A DNA stretch of 64,000 bases from Bolinopsis microptera (Eukaryota > Ctenophora > Tentaculata > Lobata > Bolinopsidae): positions 12,929,865 through 12,993,864 of the forward strand of contig NC_087082.1 of the NCBI RefSeq assembly GCF_026151205.1. Direction: 5' to 3'. A model generated the notes under the pieces. That model was not told the DNA's origin and did not search any database. It saw only the letters and a list, made by a program, of their open reading frames with translations. Both the position numbers and the translations under genes were made by a program. This document shows, one piece after another, positions 190 to 58,800 of this stretch (position 1 is the first letter of the stretch; each line of letters starts with the position of its first letter).

Positions 190-26762
<26,573 letters not shown>

Positions 26763-29579: not shown

Positions 29580-31515
29580 AAAGTTAGTACTACTACACCT
29601 TCTTGCTCTTCAAATCTTGAGAGTGCTAACAACTTTGCACAGTTCTTTAAATCAAAGGTCGACAACATATACAACAACATTTATTTAGAACAACAATCGC
29701 AAGATTCTCCTAACTCAGATGAATTTGTTCCTCTTTCTAATAGCCCAAAGATAGTACAATTCCGTCATGTGTCTGATGAAGAACTAGTAAGCATCATAAA
29801 GAATATGTCTAACAAATTCTGTGATCTTGACCCCATACCTACAAAGATTCTCATCAAGTGTCTCCCAGAACTCCTTCCTCTGATCTCATTTATAGTCAAT
29901 GAATCATTAGTTAAAGGTGAGTTTCCTCTAAAACTTAAGGAGGCTCTCATTCGTCCAAGTTTGAAGAAACGTGGCCTTGACGGTGAATCTCTATCTAACT
30001 ATAGGCCTATTAGCAATCTCTCATTCTTGTCAAAAATCATTGAGAAGTGTGTATCTATACAGCTCACCAGTTATCTTGAGGATAACAACTTGCTTTCTAA
30101 AGTTCAGTCCGGCTATAGGAAGTTTCATAGCTGTGAAACTGCAACAACCAGAATCCATAACGACATCTTGATAACTATTGACAAGAAAACTAAAGTTGTT
30201 CTTTTACTTCTAGATTTGAGTGCTGCCTTTGATACTGTCAATCACCCAAGATTAATCAAGAAGCTAAGATCTGCTTATGGCATTACAGGCATTGCTCTTA
30301 CATGGATCAGGTCCTACTTGGCTAACCGTTCATTTTGTGTCAAAGTCAAGGATTCATCTTCCTCAGCAACTGTTCTTGAGATAGGTGTGCCACAAGGTTC
30401 AATCCTTGGCCCCCTGCTATTCATATTGTACACCAAAGATCTTGAGAACATTGCAAGCATGCATGGGTGCTGTATTCATTTGTATGCTGATGACACCCAG
30501 CTGTATTTCACTCTTGATTCTGATGACCCATCACAGCTAGAGCACAATATGGAACACTGTATGTCTGATATCAAGAAATGGATGACAAACAATTTCCTTC
30601 AACTGAATTCTTCTAAGACTGAAGTCATCGTTATATCCTCTAAATTTGACTCAACAAATATTCCAGCCTCTCTACAGATTGTTAGGGATCAAGAGCCACA
30701 TGTTGTTAGTGGAACTGTGAAGAGTCTTGGGCTGTATTTGGACAGTTATCTTTCAATGAGTGATCAGATTACGTCAGTGGTTCAAGCATGTAATATTCAG
30801 ATCAGAAATTTGTGGTTTAATGCATCAAAACTGTCTTTTAACCTTAAGATTCAGCTTGTTCATGCTCTAGTACTCTCTAGAATTGATTATTGCAATAGCG
30901 TATATTTTGGACTGAGCTCTTATGATTTAAGTCGTTTACAGAAGGTGCAAAATTCTGCTGTAAGATTTATTTTCGGGAGAGGAAGAAAGGCACACACTAC
31001 TCCACTACTTAAGAAAGTTCATTTTCTACCAGTTAGATTTAGAATAGATTTTAAGATTGCCCTACTTGCCTACAAGTGTTTAAATAATATAGCTCCTCCT
31101 TACTTAAAAGAGTTGATATCTCCTAGGCAGCAAAGTTTTAAAAATGTACGTCTTGATAATGATTATTTTTACCTTAGTTTTCCGCCCTCTCCTAACTATG
31201 TAAACACAGAGAAAGCTTTTAGTCACTGTGCAGTTAAAGTATTTAATTCCTTGCCATACGACATAAGATCAGCTGAGTCAGTTACATCTTTCAAGACCAA
31301 ACTTAAAACATACTCCTTTTCTCTAGCATTTGATTGATTTTGCATTTACATAGGTAAAATGAACTTGTCATGTCTAATTTTCAATTAAACTAAGCTCAGT
31401 TAATGTAAGAGCCGCTTTAGAAAGCACTGGAGTTTATCTCCAGGATTAAATTATATCGAGTTATATGATTTAGCTATAAGGCGGTTTATAAATGTTGTAA
31501 TTATTAATTATTATT
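29580..31515 (+). mobile_element. 5'-truncated CR1/L2-like non-LTR element, with reverse transcriptase ORF at 29769-31337
   Basis: The frame is open from about 29580 (NNFAQFFKSKVDNIYNN upstream of the first ATG) to the TGA at 31337. It contains NYRPISNLSFLSKIIEK, LLLDLSAAFDTVNH, GVPQGSILGPLLFILYTKDL, LYADDTQLYF and the typical C-terminal SRIDYCNSVYFGL and LKKVHFLPVRFRIDFK blocks of CR1/L2-type elements. The endonuclease and ORF1 are missing. The 3' end has the short ATT repeats typical of L2-type tails (GTAATTATTAATTATTATTA, about 31496-31515). The reading frame is intact, so the insertion is fairly young. It lies between the two large divergent genes and abuts an older minus-strand element fragment. 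Confidence 0.9.
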
Positions 31516-43800: not shown

Positions 43801-46800
43801 GAGCTTGAACTAATTGTTGAGGAAGTGGTAGAAGTAAGTTTAACAATGTCCTGTCTGATCAACCATAAACTTTGTACCATATTATTACGTGTGCTTTCTA
43901 AAAGAAAGCTTCTATGTTCCAAATTCTCGATCAATGTCAAATGTTATCAAATGTAATCAATATTTCGTTCCAAGAGTTAAATTCCGTGTATATCTGGTTA
44001 TCAGGTATTTTAAAGAGGAAATAAAATGAGTAAATGGCGTGATTTCAATGAACCTTTGGGTAATGACGGAGTACCGAACCTCTTTCCAACAGCAAGTCTC
44101 AGATATTTTAAAATCAAATTATCAGCCACATGTCCGTAATCCATATCACATGATTTTAAATTCCTCTCAATATCAGTTTGTTGAAATCGAACACCCAGGG
44201 TTTTAAAAAGTGCAATGTGGCATATCTGTGGCGATATTTGGTCGTGTGTTTTGCGTATAACAAAAAACATTTTGCAAAATTTCATGACTTTATGATGTTT
44301 TGGTAATGAAAGTAAGCATAGAAAGACCTGTAACTCTGTAATTATTCCATATATGGTCATTTAACAGTATTCAGGGTGATGTTCGTCCCAAAGATGATCT
44401 GTCAAAGTTGACTGAAACATTACTGGAGCAAATCTCATCTTGGGAGTTGGGTGCTCACCCTTTATTTTATCAAGGAGCTTTTTATGAAAATACGTAATCT
44501 ATTCCTCGAAACCTCTCAAAGAGCGACGAGGCGCCTAACGAAGTTAGAGATAACTAAGTAGTTTTCTAGTACAGGAGACTGTAAGAGTGGGAACAAATAA
44601 CGACAGCGTACCCGCAGTCACGGCGGTGCTATCCTGATTTGTAGTTAATCCTCAGTCACCGTATACTCATACATCATGACGAACGTTCCAGTGCAGTGGT
44701 TTCTATAAATATCTAATATTTTCTAGTGATAATAAGAGATTACTGTTTCAGGAGGACGGCATGTTGAACAACTCAGCGGAGTCAGGAGGCAGGAGGTCCT
44801 CTGCTGGAGGAGGAGCCAGAAAGAAGAGTCTCAAGGGACAAGGACACGGCAAACCTAAAGCTTACAAACTGGGCGAGACTGCACCCATGAACGTAAGTAC
44901 TTGCGTCTTGCTTTCTTTTCTAGAACCATGAACTGACTCAATTAATGAAAGTTGTGATCAAGGGATCGGTTTAACTTACTTTACTTTGTATGTACCTGAT
45001 TAGTAATCTTATATGTGATTTCTGAATACTCTACTAGATTCAAATTTCAATTGGCAGGCCGATTTAATTGAATACAGTGTAATGTCCCCATACAATAAGG
45101 CGAGGTTAATAACCTACTGTATTTACAGTTAGGATATATGAAGCACAGAGAGCAGGAATTACCTCCCTGGAGGTCCAGTGACAATAAACCCAAAGATATC
45201 CAGCTCTACAACAAGGAGATCCTTGGTATCAACTCAGAGACCGTGTAAGTTTAGAATGTTGTCTGTAAAGCAGTAAGTTTGTTAAGTTAATTCAGCTCGG
45301 TACATTGTCAAATGTCAGTATGTGAGTCAGTATGTGAGTCAGTAAAGTTTCCCGCCAATTTATCTGTTAATTATAATATGACCTTTCTGTAAGTTGTGGA
45401 ATACTGTCAAGTGTCAAGTTGACAGTGAAGGGTAAGGCTAGCGTCAACACGTTGTATTTGACTTTGCCTTAGTCAGTAAGTAAGTCTGTATGTCCGTATG
45501 TGTGTATATCTGTCTGTTTGTCAATGACATTAATTTTCCAACAGACCAAGACACATATCAGAGAAGTTCCAGAAAATAGAGATTCACAGATCACCTCAGA
45601 GCCCAAGATGCAACAGATCCCTCGATGTGGTAAATATGGATTGTTTTCTTTTATCGCAGTGTTGTCTTTTATCGCATTGATCGAATTTCCGTTAACATTT
45701 ATCAATATACTCGAGCCAAGAAGACACGATAAATCTACTCGATGATTTATTTACCACTAAGTTTATGATATTGATAGCCATTAGTCAGTTAGCCGGCTCG
45801 GTTAAAAAGGGCTCCCAAAATATTGTACAGATTGTCAGTGACTTGTTTTGTGTGTAAAGTTTCTACTCATCTAATAATTGAATCACAAATACTGTAAGTA
45901 TATAATATCTCTAGAACTGGAGATTACGTAAGTGATCTAGTCGTTGTTGTTTAATGATTGCGTCATAATGATTGCGTCATAAGAGCTGAACTTAGTGAAG
46001 GTGATGAAATAATCCCAGCCTCACCTACTGGCTATAGCTATAGCAAGGAGTTAGGTTTAACTAGTAGTAGTAAACCCGCGATGGGGTGGCATGTGCCTCA
46101 ATAAAAATATTACAATCATTTATTATTATATCAATGTATCATTAAATATTTCAAAAATATCAATAACGTATGGTTGATCCTTCACACTTGGTAAAATATA
46201 TAAAAATAAAGTTAATCTACACTAAAGAATAAATAATCTATATTATATAAATCAACAATATTAACTCCCCATCTTCATGTAGTCATTTATCAAAGCGGTA
46301 GAAATCCAAGTAATTTTAGTACGCGGTGCGCAAGGAATTTCGTTTTTTTTTTAAATGTGTAGGCAAGATAAGCCTAAGTGTGGCAGTGAAAATTGAAAAA
46401 TAAGTTGCAGAATAAATTGCAGTGACTGACTGTCAAATGCATTTTCGCAGTTCATTTATTTGACTGCACAGTGCACTAACGTTTAGGATTCTTACAGCTG
46501 TTATATTTTGCTAATATTTTGTTTAAAAGTTGTAAAGGACAAAGTTCTTGTCCGTCCACGAAAGGTTTTCTAGGTCAAGTTTTTGTTTGTCCAGTAAGTA
46601 ACGTACAATGTTGTCCTTGTATGAATTAATAAACTTATCTTGTAACTTAGGTACGTTGAAGGGAAGGATTTTGTTTATTTCGTTTATCGTGTTGTTATAT
46701 AATCGTGGTCCTACGTTAGAGATGCTATAATCGGTGATCCGTAATCTGTTGAACTTAATTTCAAAATACTTTGGATTTCTCCTTTCCGTTTGTCTAAGCG

Positions 46801-49800
46801 GTGATTTTTCAAATATACTACAGATACTCGATGGTGCTACTCCCATATAAACCTTGTGCATCAAAGTTAGACAGCTTTTAGCAATGAGGTTAGGAAGAGC
46901 CAAAATTCCTATTTTGTTGAAGATGGATTTTGTGTGAGATGGTAGTTTACGTTTTTCTTTGTCGTAAAAATAGTTATGATAATCTGAATCAGTGGCGCGA
47001 ATAGCTTTCTTTTGAGCAGAGAATAAAGACTGAATGGAATTTAAAGATTTAGTACCCCAAACAGTAGCGCAGTAATACAGGTGAGATTGAATTAAACTAT
47101 TGTATAGCATTTTTTGAGCTTTATTCGGAATGGAACTTTTAAGTTTCATCATTACGCCTGCATTTCTGGATATTTTAGTCTTTAACTGTTTAATGTGCTG
47201 GCTCCAGCTAAGTTTTGAGTCAATAATGACACCTAAAAATCGTTCATGTTCACTTTTCACTAGTCGCTGTCCTTCTATACTAATATTTATATCCTCTGGT
47301 AATCTGTTAGTGAATATCATGTATTTAGTTTTTCCTATATTGAGTTTAAGACCGTTGTTTTTAACCCATGTCTGTACAGTATTTAATACTCTGTTTGCAC
47401 GCATGTTCAGTTCAGTGTACGTGTCGGCAGAAACGATGATGTTTGCATCATCAGCGAAGAAAATATAATGGGCTATATCGCTTACATTTGCAAGGTCGTT
47501 TATGTAAATAATGAACAATATAGGACCAAGAATGGACCCTTGAGGAACTCCATGTTCCAATCCCATTTTTTCTGAACTGCAACCGTTGACGTGAACATAC
47601 TGTTTCCGGTTAGTTAGATAAGACTCAAACCAGGATAAGCTAAGGCCTCTTACACCATAGTGCTCCAGCTTATGTAGCAGTATCTCACTGTCTACTAGGT
47701 CAAACGCCTTGGAGAAGTCAAGAAGCAGTAATGCTGACACTTGCTTCCTTTCTAGAGCTTTATGTATGTTAAACTGAGCTTCAAGCAACGCATGTTCACA
47801 ACTGTGACCCGATCTAAAACCAAATTGCGACGCATATAGAATATTACGTGATTTTAGGTGCTTTACTAAACGTGCATGCATTATTTTTTCGAATATCTTT
47901 GAGAAGCAGGACAAAAGTGAGATTGGTCTGTAGTTTGTAATTTCGCTGCGCGATCCTCCTTTATGGAGTGGGATAACCTTAGCAAGTTTGAGCTTTTCGG
48001 GGAATACTCCTTCGTGAAGGGAGTGTGAGATCAGGTGATTAACTACTGGAGACAGCACATTGCAAACCTTTTTAAGAGGCTGTATATTCATATCTGAAGT
48101 CGATTTGTTCTTAAGATCATGTATGATTTCAGCAATTTCGGAGGGCGAGGAGTCCTCCAGCTCCATATCAAAATCACATCGACTTGATTGGGGAAGAGAA
48201 TGTCCTACTGATCCTGCACCGCGAACCAGATTGTTTTCGCTCTTTAGGTTCTCAGCTATATTAGTAAAATAATCATTAAAACTGTCAGCTATATCTTGTG
48301 AGTCGGTTATAACTCTATTTTTATAGTTAATCTTACTTATTTTTATTTTTTCTTTTGATTTCTTGTTTAATATTTGATTAATCATTTGCCATTGTAATTT
48401 GCTATTGCTCGCATGCTTTTTAAAATATGATGCGTAATACTTCTTTTTCGCAATATCTACTTGTTTTTCAACAAACTTTTTCATATGCTTATAAGTTTTT
48501 TCATTTTTTTCAGTAGGCTCTTTAACAAAGGATTTATATAGTTGGTTCTTTCGATTGCATGCACATTGAAGCCAATCTAATATCCACGGTTTAGAGTTTT
48601 TTCTGTGGTTTGATTTTTTCTTTTTAACTGGAAAACACTCATTATAGACTTCTTCATATTTAGTGTGAAAAGCTTCAAATTTTGTATTTGTCCCGTCAAC
48701 GTTGTGTAAAAAATTCCAATCAATAGACGCTATTTTCTCCTCAAAACGAGCGATTTTCTCTTCATTTATTACTCGGTTTGATGATTCACAAGTTTCATTT
48801 TTCAATTTATTTCCTATTCTATTAGTGTCGAGAAGTATGCCGGTAAATGTGGCAAGGTGATCAGATAGCGATTCAGTTCTAATGCCTGACTTTGTTATAG
48901 CATGGCATTGGTTTACGAAAATGTGATCAATAAGTGTAGCACTGTGACAAGTAATACGAGTTGGTCGTGATATCGTTGGTGCGAATCCATACTCTGCAAA
49001 AATATCAACATATTTAGTAGTATGGTCATTTACGCCGTATTCTAATAGATTAATATTGGTATCACCTAGAAATAATACGTTTTTGTTGCTATGTCGCGCC
49101 AAATCTTTTAGGGTGTTTTCCAATTTTTCTAAGTAACTGGGGACATTACCACTGGGAGACCGATACATATTGCATAGTATGACGTTTTTGTGGCCATTTT
49201 GAGCTATCTCTATTAACTGAAATTCGCCAACGTTTGGATCATCTCTATAAGATAATTCAGATCGTGCAGTGACATCAGATAATTCACAGAGATTCTTGTT
49301 TACATAGGTTACTAGACCACCGCCCTTACCAGAGTCCCTTGCGGGAGCCTGAATAAAGGGGGGATGAAAGCCTTCTAACTCTAATTCTTTTCCTTGAAAT
49401 GCCATACTTACAACCGTGCAGTTTGTTTCGTTGAAACACAGAACATCAAATTTTAGGTGCTGTTCAATTTCATCACGTATATTAGAGATTGCTTTGCTCA
49501 AAGATCGAATATTAAGAGATTGAACTTTAAATTCATAAGGCCTACTCGTGTTGATTTGCCGTGGTTCGTAGTATTTACAGCTATTTAGTACATCTGAGCA
49601 GTTATCCCATGGATTAAAGTTTAAGTCATTGTTTTCTTCAAAAGTATTACCTATATAATTAGAGTCATGGTTTCTATGGTATGGGTTAAATTTTGCGCTA
49701 TTCTCGTAATTACCGTGTACGGTGTATAATTGTCTAGGTGATACCTCGAAACCAGGAAACAATTCACGTGTGCAGCTTTTGCATCCTAACTCGCCCGCTG

Positions 49801-52800
49801 AGCATTTATTGTGCGAATAAGCGTCGCATATCCAGCAAACCGCCATTTTTGATTTGTTTCCTAGCTTTTTACAAGTTTTGCAACTCACCCTGGCAAAACT
49901 TACTTTAGATTTAGCTTTTGTTTCTGTACTACAGGGTATGTAAGTGTTACACGAATTTTCATTAGTTAGAGTGGTAATATCAGTATTAGTAAACGGAAAT
50001 ATGTCAGTAGTACATGCCAAACAATACCAGTTTATGAAACTATTGTCTAATTTCATTCGATTTACGTCATTTGGTTCAAGATTAGCACATTTACGATGAA
50101 AAATACCGTTACAAAGGCTGCATTTTAGCGGATCTTTACGTTCTAAACATTTTTTAGAACATAATCTACATCTACAAGACTCTTTGCACATCTTTAATTT
50201 GCAAGTATAACTATAGATTACTGGTTATATGATATACGATAGATTACTGATTATCAATATAAAATTAAAGATCTAAAGAGATTTATACAGGAACTGTGGG
50301 TCAAGAAAACGGGTTAAGTTTTATGTTTGACTCCTAGTTCCAAAATCAGTCAAAATCTGTAAAGGTTAAATAATTGATTAAATAGTTAAAATATTTAAAT
50401 ATAAATACACTGAATTTACTCCAGTAATTCTACGCTTGTGTTGTGTTGAAATTAGTTCGGTCCGGATTTATGTTGTTGTTATCTGCAATTTTGCTTATAA
50501 CCGGTTCAGATAAGATAAGAAAGAGTAAAAAACCGTTTAAAATTTACTGTGATACATTTACCATGGTCTATAAGCCATCGCAATAAAAAATAATTTATGA
50601 TTAGAAAAGAAAAAAGAAGATAAGGGACTTGCTGTTTTTTGAAAAATTTGAACTTAGGTACTTTCTGTGAACGTTACTATACGTTTAGCTTTGAAAAATT
50701 AAATTTGTTCAAAATTGTGTTGTAAACGATTATGTATTCGCGACGAAAAATTTGATTTAAGAATTTCTACTGCATTGGCAAAAGAGATCGGAACTCATCC
50801 CTTAAAGGCCACACCTCTTCGATTACTGTCGGTCTTCGCCTGGCCAGTTCAATGATGCAGTCCAAGAGACGCGAAACGATCCCTTTCTTGGCTGCTAAGG
50901 TTAGATGAATACCGTTCCCATTTGGATCTAGTATAGTGCACCTTTTCCTCACCAGCTCAAAGCATATTTGATGCGAGTCAAACATCAATAGATTTTCAAC
51001 CTTCGTGGTTAAAATAAATAAAGACTCGTTAAACCTACGAATTTCTGGATTTAGCCAGTGATAAGTGGTTAGTGTTATGGAGTTAAAGATGAATGTGGTG
51101 TTTGGGTATCTCTCACAATAAGTACGCAGATCATTCGCCACGACATCAAACAACGAGTAAGAACGGTGATTATACCTGGACAAATCGTTGATGCCTGCCG
51201 AAATCACCACGTAACTCATGTGAGGGAATAGGTGCTCAAACTTGTGAAGATCAGTGATTTTGTACATTGTCTCCTTGGTGCATGGCAAGTGAGTAGGAAA
51301 CAAGCTGACGGGTGTGGTTGAATGAATTGAATCCGTCAATAGCAGAACACGTTCCGTTGGAATCGGAGTCGGGTCTGTTTCTGGTCTACTAGATTGGCGG
51401 ATTGGTGGTATATGCTGTGGTGTGGTGGGAGCTGAGAGTCTGCGAAAAGTTAGTGATAGTCTCTCGCCTTGTGCTGTGGGATCTGCTTTAATACCATGTT
51501 CCCAAAAATCCTGGGAGGACCTTGACATGCAATAAGTCTGCCCGTGTTTGAGGTGTATGGATTGTGTCGTGAGAGGTCCTATTTTGCTGCGGAAGTCAAT
51601 TGTTCGGGTAGCACCGAGACTGACTGTGATTATGTTACTGGGATTGACGATGCAAGCTTCGTTGTCACTGTGCATGGGAATTGAAGATTTACCGTTCTCA
51701 TAACGAGTAAGAAGGCAAGTTATGTTGTCTGTGGTGAATGTTGGGTCTTCTGTGTGATGAGCGATTGAGTCTATGATTTCAAGGAGTGGGTGATTCGTGG
51801 GAATATCAAGTGGTTTGTGTACTGTTCTGCCATAACGATACTCTGTTCTACCAAAAAATGCTGTCTGTCGATGCCCTATCTTAGTAAAATGTACTCCGTG
51901 GCAAACTGTCTCCAGGTCTAAATGGTCAAAGTTTATATCACACGGTTCAACAGCACCTGGTATAGTTGGTAACGTCACCGTGTTGAGCTGTGCTGGTGCT
52001 GGTGGTGGCGGTGGGGTTGATGGAGGAGTTCTTCTAGAGTTGGCGGCGCTTTCATAAGCTAACATGTCCGTGATACACTGTTTCGCTGCCGCTATCGACT
52101 CTGTTAGTTGTTCAATAATCCTCGCATGATGGCTTTCTGCTTCTTGAAGTTTCTCGGAAATGAGGGAGGTTACGGAAGTGAACTGATGCAAATTTTTAGA
52201 AATATCATCTACATTGCTAGTTAGGTGTTGCTCTAGGTGTTGCTTTAAATGTTCATAGGCATGTGCCTTTCTATCCCTAGTTAGCATCCCTACTCCTATT
52301 GTATGATCTGTAAAACCACAGATTGTTGAATGGTATTCCGATTCATGTTTAAGTTGTTCTTCTGTCAGGGTTGAGAAGAGCTCTAAACTTGTTTTAGGAG
52401 ATAATAGTGCCGTCCTAAAAGTTTTATCGTACGTACCGTCTTGTTGTGGGGGTACCAGGCAGGTCTTTGAAGAGGTAGTGAGTGGGTCACTACCTGGTAG
52501 CCCCTTGTCATCTGATGAAGGATTCGTCTCGTGAGATGGGTGGGTGGTTGGCTGATCCAATAAGTTGAGCGCGGCGTCGACCATGGTAAATTTTCTTATC
52601 AGCAAACGAATTTCATGCGTAATGTAATATAATAATACCTTGGCTAATGAGTGCTGAGCGCGATAATTCCCGACAGCTTGCTGGAGGGAACGCGCGGGCA
52701 CGAAATTGCCAAGGTGTTATGTATTATAATATTTTCCGGTTCCGAATTCGAAGGGGTGTAATCCGATACGTGCGCATGATACAATATAGTGTCTAATATA

Positions 52801-55800
52801 TAGAACGCCAGTGTTATTTGTTTTACAACTTGCCGCCAGCCAGTCTGAGGTCTATGCTGATAATACCTTTGCTTCCCTTGCGGGATATATCGGCAAATTA
52901 TCAGCTCTCAGTGTCGGAGACTTTTAGTGGATATAATTCCCGGAAGGTATTATAAAATACAAATATGATGAGTCCATACAAATATGATGAGTGAAACAAA
53001 TATGATGAGTGATACAAATATGATGAGTGATACAAATATGATGAGTGATACAAATATGATGAGTCTGAGGAGAGTAATTTGTCTACTGGACCACTATACG
53101 TTCTGTGCTGTGTACAATGCCATGTGTGAGTCACGTGCATTTATGTGAGGTCTCCTACATCACATAATATAATAATATATAAGACAGTTTATGAGGATAT
53201 TAAATTGGCATATTTATATTAAACATGGCTACTTTGACAGAGAGTGACCTCCGACTGTGCTAGACTTCATCAAGTTATTGGGTGGTCAGTCTCCAGCGAC
53301 CTGAATTATCGATCCAGCTGCTGTGTATTAAGTCATCTTACTCTGGGTAGTGGGTATTTAGGATTGGGTTCGATAATTAAGCGAGCTTAGAATATTAGAA
53401 TATTACGTGTCAGAGCTAAGTGAGCTCTACTAAGTGAGCTCTACTAAGTGAGCTCTACTAAGTGAGCTCTACTAAGTGAGCTCTACTAAGTGAGCTCTAC
53501 TAAGTGAGCTCTACTAAGTGAGCTCTACTAAGTGAGCTCTACTAAGTGAGCTCTACTAAGTGAGCTCTACTAAGTGAGCTCTACTAAGTGAGCTCTACTA
53601 AGTGAGCTCTACTAAGTGAGCTCTACTAAGTGAGCTCTAATAAGTGAGCTCTACTAAGTGAGCTCTACTAAGTGAGCTCTACTAAGTGAGCTCTACTAAG
53701 TGAGCTCTACTAAGTGAGCTCTACTAAGTGAGCTCTACTAAGTGAGTGGTCCGGAAATCTGAAATGAATAAAGTATTGTATGATATTGGGAAATATAATT
53801 AGATTAAGTTAACTTGTAATTTAATAAAATGGACATTTAAGAACACACCTTCACCTTCGTCGAAACATGGAATCTTGGCCTGAATAGAATATCGAAGTTG
53901 AAATTTGACCAATGAAGTTGATTGACTGAAGTCCTTCGAATATGGAGGTTTATGTAATAACCCTAATTATCATTTCGACATTTCCAGTGATAAGGGTAAC
54001 AAAAATATTTGGAATATTTGTTGCTGTTTTGGGGCAAAGTCCTCAGTGTACCTAAAGTTCGGTATCACCAAGTCATTATCTAATTTTCTCGAGCTATCTG
54101 CATGTGTTCATCATAACTGTTAGGAGCTAGCTCAAGTCATTATCTCCTTTCTCCATGACCGAGTAGTCTACTCCTCTAGTCTAGTTCCTGATAACAAACT
54201 GCCAGCTTCCTCCAACCTTGGCGATCCCCCTTGTTCTCCTTGCACAGGTCTCAGTTTTATCCTAGAGCTTGATCTGAAATGTGCCCTGGGACTGTTTCTA
54301 ATACTAGCCCTAGAACCTTCCCTCAAGCTTATCCTGGAGCGAGCCCCGAGACTAGCTCTGGAACTTTCTCTCAAACGAGCTCTTAGGCTGGTCCTGGAAC
54401 TGCTTCTACAGCTTGATTTACTACTTCTAATAGCACTCCTGTTTGGTAAGGGAGATGTGTAATTTGACCTGGAGTGAAGGAACGTGTTCACAATCCAAAC
54501 ACGGAAGCTCTTCTTCCGTGTTAGATAGATTACAAAGTTGGAAGTTCCATTGAGCACTACAAAAAACACGTCCACTAGATTCCACAAATAGAACTGAGTA
54601 AAAGTGTTGGTATCGTAAAACGGCCCTGAGTCAGTTTTGTAGACTCCTATTTCGTAGAGCCATATCATCATGTTGGTAAACATTGGGAGGTTGCAAATGA
54701 GGTAAACTGAGGTCATGATGATGATGGTGATGGTAGCATCGCGTTTGATGTTTATCCTCGTATGTTTGAGAGCAGCAACTGGCATTTTCAGGGACGTATA
54801 AATGAGGTAAATAGAGACCAAACAGCTGACCGTGACAGCAGGAAAGGGTAGCAAGAGAAACAGAGAACCCAACACTTGAACCAGGATGTAAGAAGGCGTG
54901 TAGGAAGGATCGCTAGCATCACTCCAACAGTACATATCCTCCTTAGTGAACACTTCGTGGGTTAACCCTACTAACCCCGGTACTATCTGAACCAGCGATA
55001 TGATAACACCATACCCTGCAACCACCATCAGTACTCTTCGTCTTCTGAGTCTACGTAGAGGGTAGAACAGGCTGTAGGTGCGAGTCAGGCTGAGGATAGC
55101 TACTAGAAACACGGAGAAGTATTGTAACCCGTGAAACACTACACTCCAGAGGGAACAGAGGAGGGGGTGTTGGAAGAGAAGGGGGTGCCGCCCCGCTAAG
55201 TAGGACACCCCCACAAACACACTCAGTGAGATTAGAGCCGTGTCAGTGAGGGCTGTTAGGGTGTAGAGTAGAGTGGGGAGCTCTTTAGGGCGGAGCAGGA
55301 AGTAGAGACTGGAGATGAGGTTACCAGGGCAGCCCACAAGGAAGAAGGTGATGTAGAGTGACCCTAGGATCTGGTCGAGGAGCTGGTTGGGGTGGTTGGG
55401 GACTGTATCGGGTGATGAGGTGTGTGAGAGGGTGCCAGGGTTTGTTAGGGATCCGGAGTCTACGATAGACATTTTCTCTTCTACTGCGAAGATAAATTTA
55501 ATGAGGTCGTACTTCTTAGTAGACAAAATTAAGGATACAAAATCCCGTTTATCTTCAACAAATTTGACAGGTTTTACGGCACTTTATCTGAATAACAAAT
55601 TGTAGTGATTACTTTAATGATGTAGTAATTAGCATAAACGCATAATAATTTTTTATCACGAAGCAAATAAGAACTTTGATTGTAAAATGTAGAGAGGATC
55701 ATTTTCACAATACTAAATCTAGTAAAAACTGACACAGAAAGTGGTAATACATATTTACCTAATCCTTATGAAAAAAGTGTAACAAAGAATAGAGACACTA

Positions 55801-58800
55801 TTTTGGAACCTCGCTCGCGCTGGGTGCAGTTAATATTGCACCACTTTTTTAGCATTTTACTTGATGAGATCACAGCTTACCCTCGAAATTATACGTTATT
55901 TTACTGGGTGATTGTACACGTGCAGAAACAGCTGCTGATTCTTGAAAATTTATCAGATTAGATAATTGGAAACCAGGATTATAGTGATGCCGCGTCACGG
56001 CCACATGATGCCGCGTCACGGCCACATCAAACACCGGCCTCACAGATTCTAGTCTCTAGTATGGAGTATTTTACTGTATAACTACTTGTAAATTATAGAA
56101 TTATATAGAATACAGATGGGATTTATCAAGCTTGAAACTGGTTGGTGATCAAGTGACGATTTACAAGTAGAGATCGATCTTTACTGAAACCCACTGCAAA
56201 ATGTGAGCACTACAAGACTTGACAGTTAAGTAAGTTTAAATCTAACCATCTTTAATTGTTTCAGACTGGACGAAGCAAAAGTAGAGAGAATATCAAGAGT
56301 CCTATGCAGAGCAAGGTTAGTTCAGTCACGTGGTCAGAACAGTAGAGTTAATAGAATTGCTGACAATTTAATCTTTATTTAATTTTGTATGCGTATTTTC
56401 GTCAGAACACCCGTTTGTATTTCTTGAATTCATTAGCAAGTTTATTTGAAGTCATGATTGTTTATGTCTGGATTTAATGACGAAGGTGTTGATTAAACAG
56501 ATTATTTTAAGTATTTAAAGTCTTCAAGTTACTTTAAAGCCATAGCAATCTGAGTTATTTGGAGAAAGCAGCAAAATTTATTGCACAACCTTCATTATGC
56601 CCCTTTTGGATCAAAGGTGCATGACTTGCAATTACATTAAAGTTGAACAACAAATGCAATCTTACAACATGTCTTTTTATAGAATACTGCAGCTGCTATT
56701 CCATAGCTAGAAATTTTGTCAGAGTACCTGAAGTTTTGAGCGATGTAGCGATTATTCCAATTCTAAAGGTAGAGGGCGTATAGTGCGAAATGCTTGCTCA
56801 ATGCTTGAATCGTTTCAAGTCCTTGGCCTGATTTCAAATTTAGAATCTTGTATGCATGATGAATCTTTTCGTACATGCCAAAATGCAATGTTTTGCATTC
56901 AGTTTATTAAAAAAAACGTGAATGTCTGGAAATGGTTTTGCTGCTAGATGAAGAGAATTGATCTAGAGCGTTAAAAGTTTTGCAATCACATTGGAACCAC
57001 CATGTTCACCAATCAACGACCTTGATAAATCTGTCATAATCGTCAAAACAAATTACGACATGCTTGATGATTTAATGAGATCATCTCACCTCTTGACATA
57101 ATGACGACTTATTCGGGCGGATTTTCGTCTTGCTAAAACTCTAGAAAACTATCATCAACTTTGGGTTACAAGAAAACTTGCTAAATATTTAACAAGAAGA
57201 CTCTCCAACTATCATGAGATCTGTAGTTTCCTAACGTATATCTCGCAGAGTCTGGTAATGGAGAGAAACAAGACCGTGTCCCCATCTGCTCTGGTGAAGA
57301 GTAACAGTAGTGGTAACGTACTGACTACTTCTACTCCTGCTAGGACCAACACAAAGAAGAAGGTATACTCATTTGTTATGCTAATTCTTTTATATTAAAA
57401 TGTTATATTGTCTTTTAAATATACTGATGGTACTTGACTTCCTCAACTTTAGTAGGAAGTGAGGATTGCGTGTTCTTGAAAAGGATTGTAATTTGCAGCG
57501 ATCGGTTTTGACCAAATTAACAAATAAAATAATCTGCGGTTACCGACCTTTACAATGTTTTATCATATATAACATATTTACAACATTTAACCCTGTTATG
57601 AGAAGCTGAATAGTGTGTTAAACCCAAGAATTTCAGGCTGTGAAAGCTAAGAGACTGTCCCAAAACGTGTGTATATGTGTGCGAGAAAGAGCGCGTGTTT
57701 TGATTGAGAGTGTTTTGATTGTGCATGGGAACTTTACTTTTGATTTTGATCCCAATTCTTTTTATCTTCAATACTTACAGCAGGCAGCAGCATATTTAAT
57801 CTGGGGTTATGAAATTAGGTCTTCTGTTCTGTCAACTCACGATAGGCTTTGAGCCAACAGCGTCTGGAGCGGAACTGTTATCTTTTATTCTTAGGATCAG
57901 GAATTTTCTTAATGAGTCAACATTCCTCCTTTTCTATTTTCATACTATATACACCATACAGTATACACTATACAGCCTTTATCTCACCTTTAATCTCACC
58001 TTATTATTAAAAGAAAAATAAGTTTCTCGAAAAAGCACCACTTGACTTATAAGCGCCTGTTATTAGTCCTTCCCCCCTTACAGTCACATTTTGTTCCACG
58101 TGACTCACTAAGTACCGATAATAACTATAATTGTACTCATTATTATGACCTCTAGTACACTAATGGGTATTATAGTGTACTAGCCACGATATTATACACC
58201 GTACCAAACAGTAAATGTATTATATGTTTACAGTGTGGGTTTTACCGATATAATACATAATATCTGCGTGTTCAGAGTGTGCTTTTCTACCCTTTGTTTT
58301 TTTATAATTCAAGTAAACAATTGTTCCGTGTGGAGTTTATAGAGCTTGCAACATATTTGCAACATATTTGCAACATATTTGCAACATATTTGCCTGATTT
58401 GAAGACACTGACCTGTTCGCCTGTTCAGTAACGCTAATAGTACATAAAACTAAAAGCCCGATACTCACCACTTATTTATTCTACAATTATATACCAAGTT
58501 ACTTACTCTCTCCTCTCACAGCAGGGACCAATGCAGAGGAAACTTAACGGTGTCAGCACTAAGACTATGACCAACGCTGCCAAGAGGGGGGCGACTAACC
58601 CGCGCAACAAGAACCTTAAGAAGAACGGAAGTGATTCAGTTGATGACGGAGAGGACATTACTCTTCCTGCAGCTTGGGTGAGTATTGGTTGAGGAGAAGG
58701 GGGGCCTTGTGAGCGAAGGTCTGGTTGTAGAATAAGTGGTTGCAGAATAAGTAGGTCAGTGTCAGGGAGTCAGGACCTTATCAAACCACCAACAAATTAT

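Follow-up and report, generated by a model that had tools for sequence, protein, structure and literature searches.

We analyzed a 64,000-nucleotide stretch of the Bolinopsis microptera genome (contig NC_087082.1, positions 12,929,865 to 12,993,864; hereafter the window), in which two long open reading frames, ORF1 and ORF2, lie on the minus strand with a spacer between them (Table 1). Judged from its sequence, the pair is an uninterrupted copy of a non-LTR (LINE-type) element with an endonuclease and a reverse transcriptase. The closest solved relative of ORF2 is L1 ORF2p (E 4.5e-22), and no RNase H match was obtained in ORF2 with Pfam. The N-terminus of ORF2 carries two consecutive PHD-like Cys/His arrays. 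The first matches PHD with an E-value of 0.0057, below the Pfam cut-off, and the Cys and His residues of both are kept in 26–31 of 31 rows (the window and the best 30, P0047–P0076, of 120 relatives listed from 209 matches). According to a published survey (PMC4120745), PHD domains are common in the CR1/L2 groups; most lie in ORF1, and in one L2 subgroup they probably stand at the N-terminal end of ORF2. The endonuclease and reverse transcriptase layout with no RNase H match, together with the PHD-like N-terminus, suggests that the element belongs to CR1/L2 (Jockey superfamily). In a search for the element ends, the two flanks had no repeat longer than 10 bp in common, and Rfam gave 0 matches in the interval 44000–56000.

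Table 1. Features of the ORF1–ORF2 element in the window
Feature	Position	Strand	Evidence
ORF1, 605 aa; from the N-terminus: disordered segment, short helices, long helix, AlkB domain, SGNH domain	50767..52584	-	ORF call, AlphaFold2
ORF1 N-terminal helices, residues 63-89	52318..52398	-	consensus pattern; AlphaFold2 helices
ORF1 long helix, residues 105-181	52042..52272	-	AlphaFold2, block pLDDT 65-91
AlkB / 2OG-Fe(II) dioxygenase domain, residues 213-382	51439..51948	-	PF13532; ALKBH3/ALKBH2 matches
HxD iron ligands H305-S-D307	51664..51672	-	kept in 48/48 undecayed rows
Iron ligand H363	51496..51498	-	kept in 48/48 undecayed rows
R375..R381 (RLSLTFR), 2OG-binding pair by homology	51442..51462	-	48/48 undecayed rows
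SGNH/GDSL domain, residues 411-581	50842..51354	-	
Spacer ORF1-ORF2, 575 bp, GC 0.273	50192..50766	-	
ORF2, 1222 aa, open throughout	46523..50191	-	
Two PHD-like Cys/His arrays, ORF2 residues 8-60, 104-140	49772..50170	-	Cys/His conservation
APE-type endonuclease of ORF2	48857..49519	-	PF03372 E 2.3e-11
Reverse transcriptase of ORF2, FADD motif at residue 912	47222..47941	-	PF00078 E 5.8e-37

ORF1 starts at the ATG at 52584 (context ACCATGG) and ends with the stop at 50767 after 605 codons; a GTG start is also possible, which would extend the frame to 52701 and the protein to 644 aa. Translation of the frame confirmed the coordinates and AlkB residue numbers of the original prediction and placed them on the minus strand. 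The claim that an AlkB and an SGNH domain share the ORF1 of a two-ORF non-LTR element was likewise borne out, by Pfam for AlkB, by the folds that AlphaFold2 confidently predicts for both domains, and by the endonuclease and reverse transcriptase of ORF2. Sequence comparison revealed that the pattern F...TC..L.......N/E.E, or a similar one, opens ORF1 relatives both with and without AlkB. The long helix at residues 105–181 is a putative coiled coil for ORF1p oligomerisation. Two tandem arrays lie upstream of ORF1: a 14-mer minisatellite (53416–53746; 23.6 copies, 99% match) about 0.8 kb away, and an 18-mer array of 5.9 copies (52957–53064), which could belong to the 5' region of the element.

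The AlkB domain matches PF13532 with an E-value of about 4e-19 to 4.7e-19 (69.8 bits against a curated cut-off of 31.2); NCBIfam returned a single weak AlkB match, far below cut-off. The domain contains the HxD...H iron triad and the R-x5-R pair (H305, D307, H363, R375, and R381). A structure search finding no double-stranded beta-helix had been named beforehand as refuting the claim; AlphaFold2 predicts this helix, and the search matched it to ALKBH2/3. A chance motif match is ruled out by the Pfam, profile, and fold matches together. Profile E-values and fold ranks identify ALKBH3 and ALKBH2 as the closest solved relatives; by their titles, the structure entries hold ALKBH3 with 3-methylcytosine in ssDNA, and ALKBH2 with duplex DNA that bears N1-methyladenine and N3-methylcytosine. 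The ALKBH5 structures come much lower in the ranking (Foldseek 4.3e-9). For the DNA N6-methyladenine demethylase NMAD-1, the sequence match is weak (E 0.047) and the fold rank lower (9.8e-9). ALKBH2/3 are nearer to the domain than ALKBH5 or other solved ALKBHs. In a tree of element rows with only ALKBH2 and ALKBH3 as cellular members, the element rows fall on one side (100/99); this tree holds 47 of the 63 family rows, leaving out P0038 and the 15 rows in which AlkB is missing or decayed. In the viral library, AlkB domains match the model with E-values down to 5.5e-15, roughly on a par with ALKBH2/3, so that the domain may be of viral source.

All five catalytic residues are intact in 48 of the 52 rows that have the domain, and their invariance outside one decayed sub-lineage points to selection for catalysis, as far as the sequences tell. 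Human ALKBH3 and ALKBH2 resemble the domain in their HSDDE or HRDDE motif and R-x5-R, but they are stand-alone host repair enzymes, and they differ at the second residue upstream of the conserved tyrosine (Tyr295 in ORF1), where both have N. At this position, T occurs in 42 of 48 family rows and N in 2, so cofactor handling may differ.

For the C-terminal part of ORF1, AlphaFold2 predicts an SGNH (flavodoxin-like) fold, and the SGNH residues S419 (block I), G464, N466, and H560 (block V) are present. Three residues before this His, 36 of 47 members have N and 4 have D. The domain does not reach the Pfam cut-off in ORF1 (Lipase_GDSL 14.5 bits vs 23.6), and Lipase_GDSL_2 matches 21 of the 47 members at E <= 0.01.

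Several other features lie in the window. Another reverse transcriptase ORF (29754–31334, plus strand; RVT_1 9.8e-34) aligns with ORF2 over 492 columns at 31% identity and belongs to a separate non-LTR element, which is apparently partial. Upstream of the ORF1–ORF2 element, a rhodopsin-type GPCR occupies a single open frame (54168–55526, minus strand; 7tm_1 1.3e-11). Elsewhere in the window, a sulfotransferase is likewise encoded in a single frame (14480–15562, plus strand; Sulfotransfer_2 8.9e-20). Two ORFs match TIR domains (6912–7661, minus strand, and 10670–11383, plus strand; TIR_2), the second below the curated cut-off. A TC dinucleotide run at 9639–10213 (287.5 copies, 98% match) is probably the reason for the overlapping long ORFs found there on both strands.

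Searching about 5.8 billion proteins yielded 46 ORF1 relatives at E <= 1e-3, of which 45 carry AlkB and the nearest is 83% identical; the two that are named both come from the ctenophore Mnemiopsis leidyi. This search and a second one admitted only proteins of 0.55–1.75 times the query length. The original prediction had held that genomic copies lacking AlkB would mark the architecture as a private fusion or an annotation artefact. Both are ruled out by the 46 relatives and the 45 AlkB domains among them, although the second search did recover relatives with a decayed AlkB or none. Scans of viral contigs (queries A1 and P0010) and of genome contigs (query A1) found no ORF1 relatives.

One M. 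leidyi gene model (P0013, 1014 aa) joins an AlkB-SGNH ORF1 to an ORF2-type endonuclease: its residues 34–469 match ORF1 130–569 (40%, 2e-100), and residues 475–991 match ORF2 177–690 (55%, E 0). Since P0013 carries both parts, the ORF1–ORF2 order recurs in another genome; direct linkage is seen in two cases only, the window and P0013. Comparison of contig sizes, covering 45 of the 62 ORF1 relatives (without P0013, P0044, P0046, and P0167–P0180) and 114 distinct listed ORF2 sizes, revealed two exact matches, at 7438 and 6765, between the contig of an ORF1 relative and that of an ORF2 relative. In the shifted controls, coincidences averaged 0.275; two were reached in 6 of 200 shifts for all 45 contigs, and in 0 of 200 for the 8 contigs of 5.5–10 kb. 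As the controls also reach such coincidences, these lend weak support to linkage.

Of the 63 family rows, 15 have a decayed AlkB or none, and one sub-lineage has kept SGNH while its AlkB decayed or is missing, which is new here. Of the five catalytic residues, the four decayed rows lack either three or all. In the other 11 rows, the domain is clearly absent from eight: P0046, P0167, P0168, P0171, and P0172 pass from the N-terminal motif straight into SGNH, and P0170, P0175, and P0178 pass directly from the helix region into SGNH, while P0169, P0174, and P0179 are too short to judge. One decayed relative still models as an AlkB fold; the alignment underlying the P0176 model holds 18 active rows among 27 and may have guided the fold. 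P0173, whose AlkB is decayed, shows an apparent short internal duplication before the domain, which P0180 is without.

Comparison of the AlkB and SGNH trees revealed that the two histories correlate across the family and disagree in places, e.g., at P0012, P0181, and P0041/P0042/P0044. This comparison used 46 of the 63 rows, omitting the 11 without AlkB, five of low coverage, and P0045, which has a very long branch. The correlated histories rule out that the sub-lineage of the window acquired AlkB only recently. Because one sub-lineage kept SGNH while AlkB decayed or went missing, AlkB is probably ancestral but dispensable in the family, and its absence or decay in these 15 rows indicates a replication mechanism that does not need it. 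Loss is a simpler account than original absence followed by gain, since the decayed copies lie on the AlkB-poor side of the SGNH tree, which holds 57 of the 63 rows (coverage below 0.75 dropped). As this tree is unrooted, an original absence keeps some probability.

The architecture combines traits of several known systems. CR1 and L2 elements are known to encode esterase-bearing ORF1s of type IV (PMC4120745), and the present element resembles these, e.g., ZfL2-1, as a LINE with two ORFs and an SGNH hydrolase in the first. The type IV ORF1s, for which a coiled coil has been reported too (PMC5408684), are described without AlkB, unlike the ORF1 found here. A survey of 448 Jockey-superfamily elements places esterase ORF1s in vertebrate groups only, and its main text does not contain the terms alkb, dioxygenase, or oxygenase (PMC4120745). 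The ZfL2-1 esterase paper lists chordates, cnidarians, and sponges as hosts, and does not contain the words alkb and dioxygenase (PMC3905857); nor do the parts examined of two further papers mention AlkB in LINEs (PMC11458739, PMC5408684). A Phalaenopsis Ty3/Gypsy element offers a parallel as a retrotransposon with its own AlkB-type demethylase, encoded in a separate extra ORF of an LTR element and of the plant m6A-demethylase type (PMC9289625). In contrast, the element studied here is non-LTR, and its AlkB lies inside ORF1, nearer to ALKBH2/3 and fused to SGNH. AlkB domains are also known in plant RNA viruses (PMC9289625). These viruses are likewise RNA-based replicators, and their AlkBs share the fold, with E-values of 5.5e-15 for the Pinela virus polyprotein and 2.0e-13 for Grapevine virus T, but are part of replicases. 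To our knowledge, no SGNH partner is known for them. Among the open-access papers that literature searches listed, no title or abstract opening reported AlkB in a LINE ORF1; an unnoticed Repbase or Dfam entry is possible.

Methylated bases such as m1A and m3C block base pairing and reverse transcription, and ALKBH3 acts on RNA as well as on DNA. The reading we prefer, at a probability of roughly 55%, is that the ALKBH2/3-like AlkB clears m1A/m3C from the element RNA and/or cDNA and that SGNH has a localisation or membrane job. The ORF1 protein would oligomerise via the long helix and coat the element RNA, as other ORF1 proteins do. Given its ALKBH2/3 affinity and intact active site, AlkB would strip Watson-Crick-face methyls (m1A, m3C) off this RNA, off single-stranded cDNA as it is made, or off both. 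Removal of these lesions, which stop reverse transcriptase, would yield more full-length copies, to the benefit of a LINE whose RNA has to be copied over its entire length. The SGNH domain may have the function in membranes or localisation that has been suggested for the esterases of other ORF1s, a membrane-related role having been put forward in the ZfL2-1 work (PMC3905857).

Alternative roles for ORF1 differ in substrate and in the need for catalysis. AlkB may be an epitranscriptomic eraser that takes m6A or a similar mark off the transcript to evade host control; the orchid Ty3/Gypsy-encoded protein binds RNA and shows demethylase activity in vitro (PMC9289625), and ALKBH5 structures do match the AlkB model, though less well. 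We consider this unlikely, as sequence and fold favour ALKBH2/3 over ALKBH5, and human L1 is helped by METTL3 and suppressed by ALKBH5, so that m6A removal would harm that LINE (PMC7873242). From the affinity and the predicted fold, m1A/m3C repair is favoured over m6A erasure; of the activities originally proposed, repair of alkylated RNA or cDNA fits, and m6A erasure is less supported. AlkB could instead act on DNA, either where the element integrates or in the new duplex, by ALKBH2-like m1A/m3C repair or by N6-methyladenine removal; this appears improbable in view of the weak sequence match and lower fold rank of NMAD-1.

AlkB might also be retained as a non-catalytic nucleic-acid-binding module for RNA packaging, a notion that the four relatives keeping a domain stripped of catalytic residues, one of them still modelled as the fold, would fit. 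We regard it as rather improbable, because all 48 other rows keep the five residues despite a mean pairwise identity of 42.5% (47 rows). That ORF1 lies outside the element, as a host AlkB-SGNH gene or an ORF of another element placed beside ORF2 by chance, would suit the GC mismatch (ORF1 0.448 vs ORF2 0.359) and the element boundaries that were not found. Such a chance neighbourhood is very improbable in light of the identical strand and order in the window and the Mnemiopsis model matching both ORFs, the 605 open codons, and the many diverse relatives; the P0013 linkage rules out a host gene.

The preferred template-repair role leads to a broader picture, which we hold tentatively, at somewhat below even odds: an animal LINE lineage may carry its own template-repair enzyme in a self-mending RNP that strips m1A/m3C or host-deposited methyl marks, with decay where the pressure is absent and a series of active, dead, and deleted domains as the result. 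Should the enzyme prove active, LINE mobility would truly be limited by methylation of the template RNA, either as damage or as a means of host control, and so strongly that a LINE acquired and retained an enzyme for repair. One could then test directly whether base lesions in RNA hold back target-primed reverse transcription and whether an ORF1 protein can be an enzyme that acts on nucleic acid, with the active, decayed, and AlkB-less relatives serving as ready controls.
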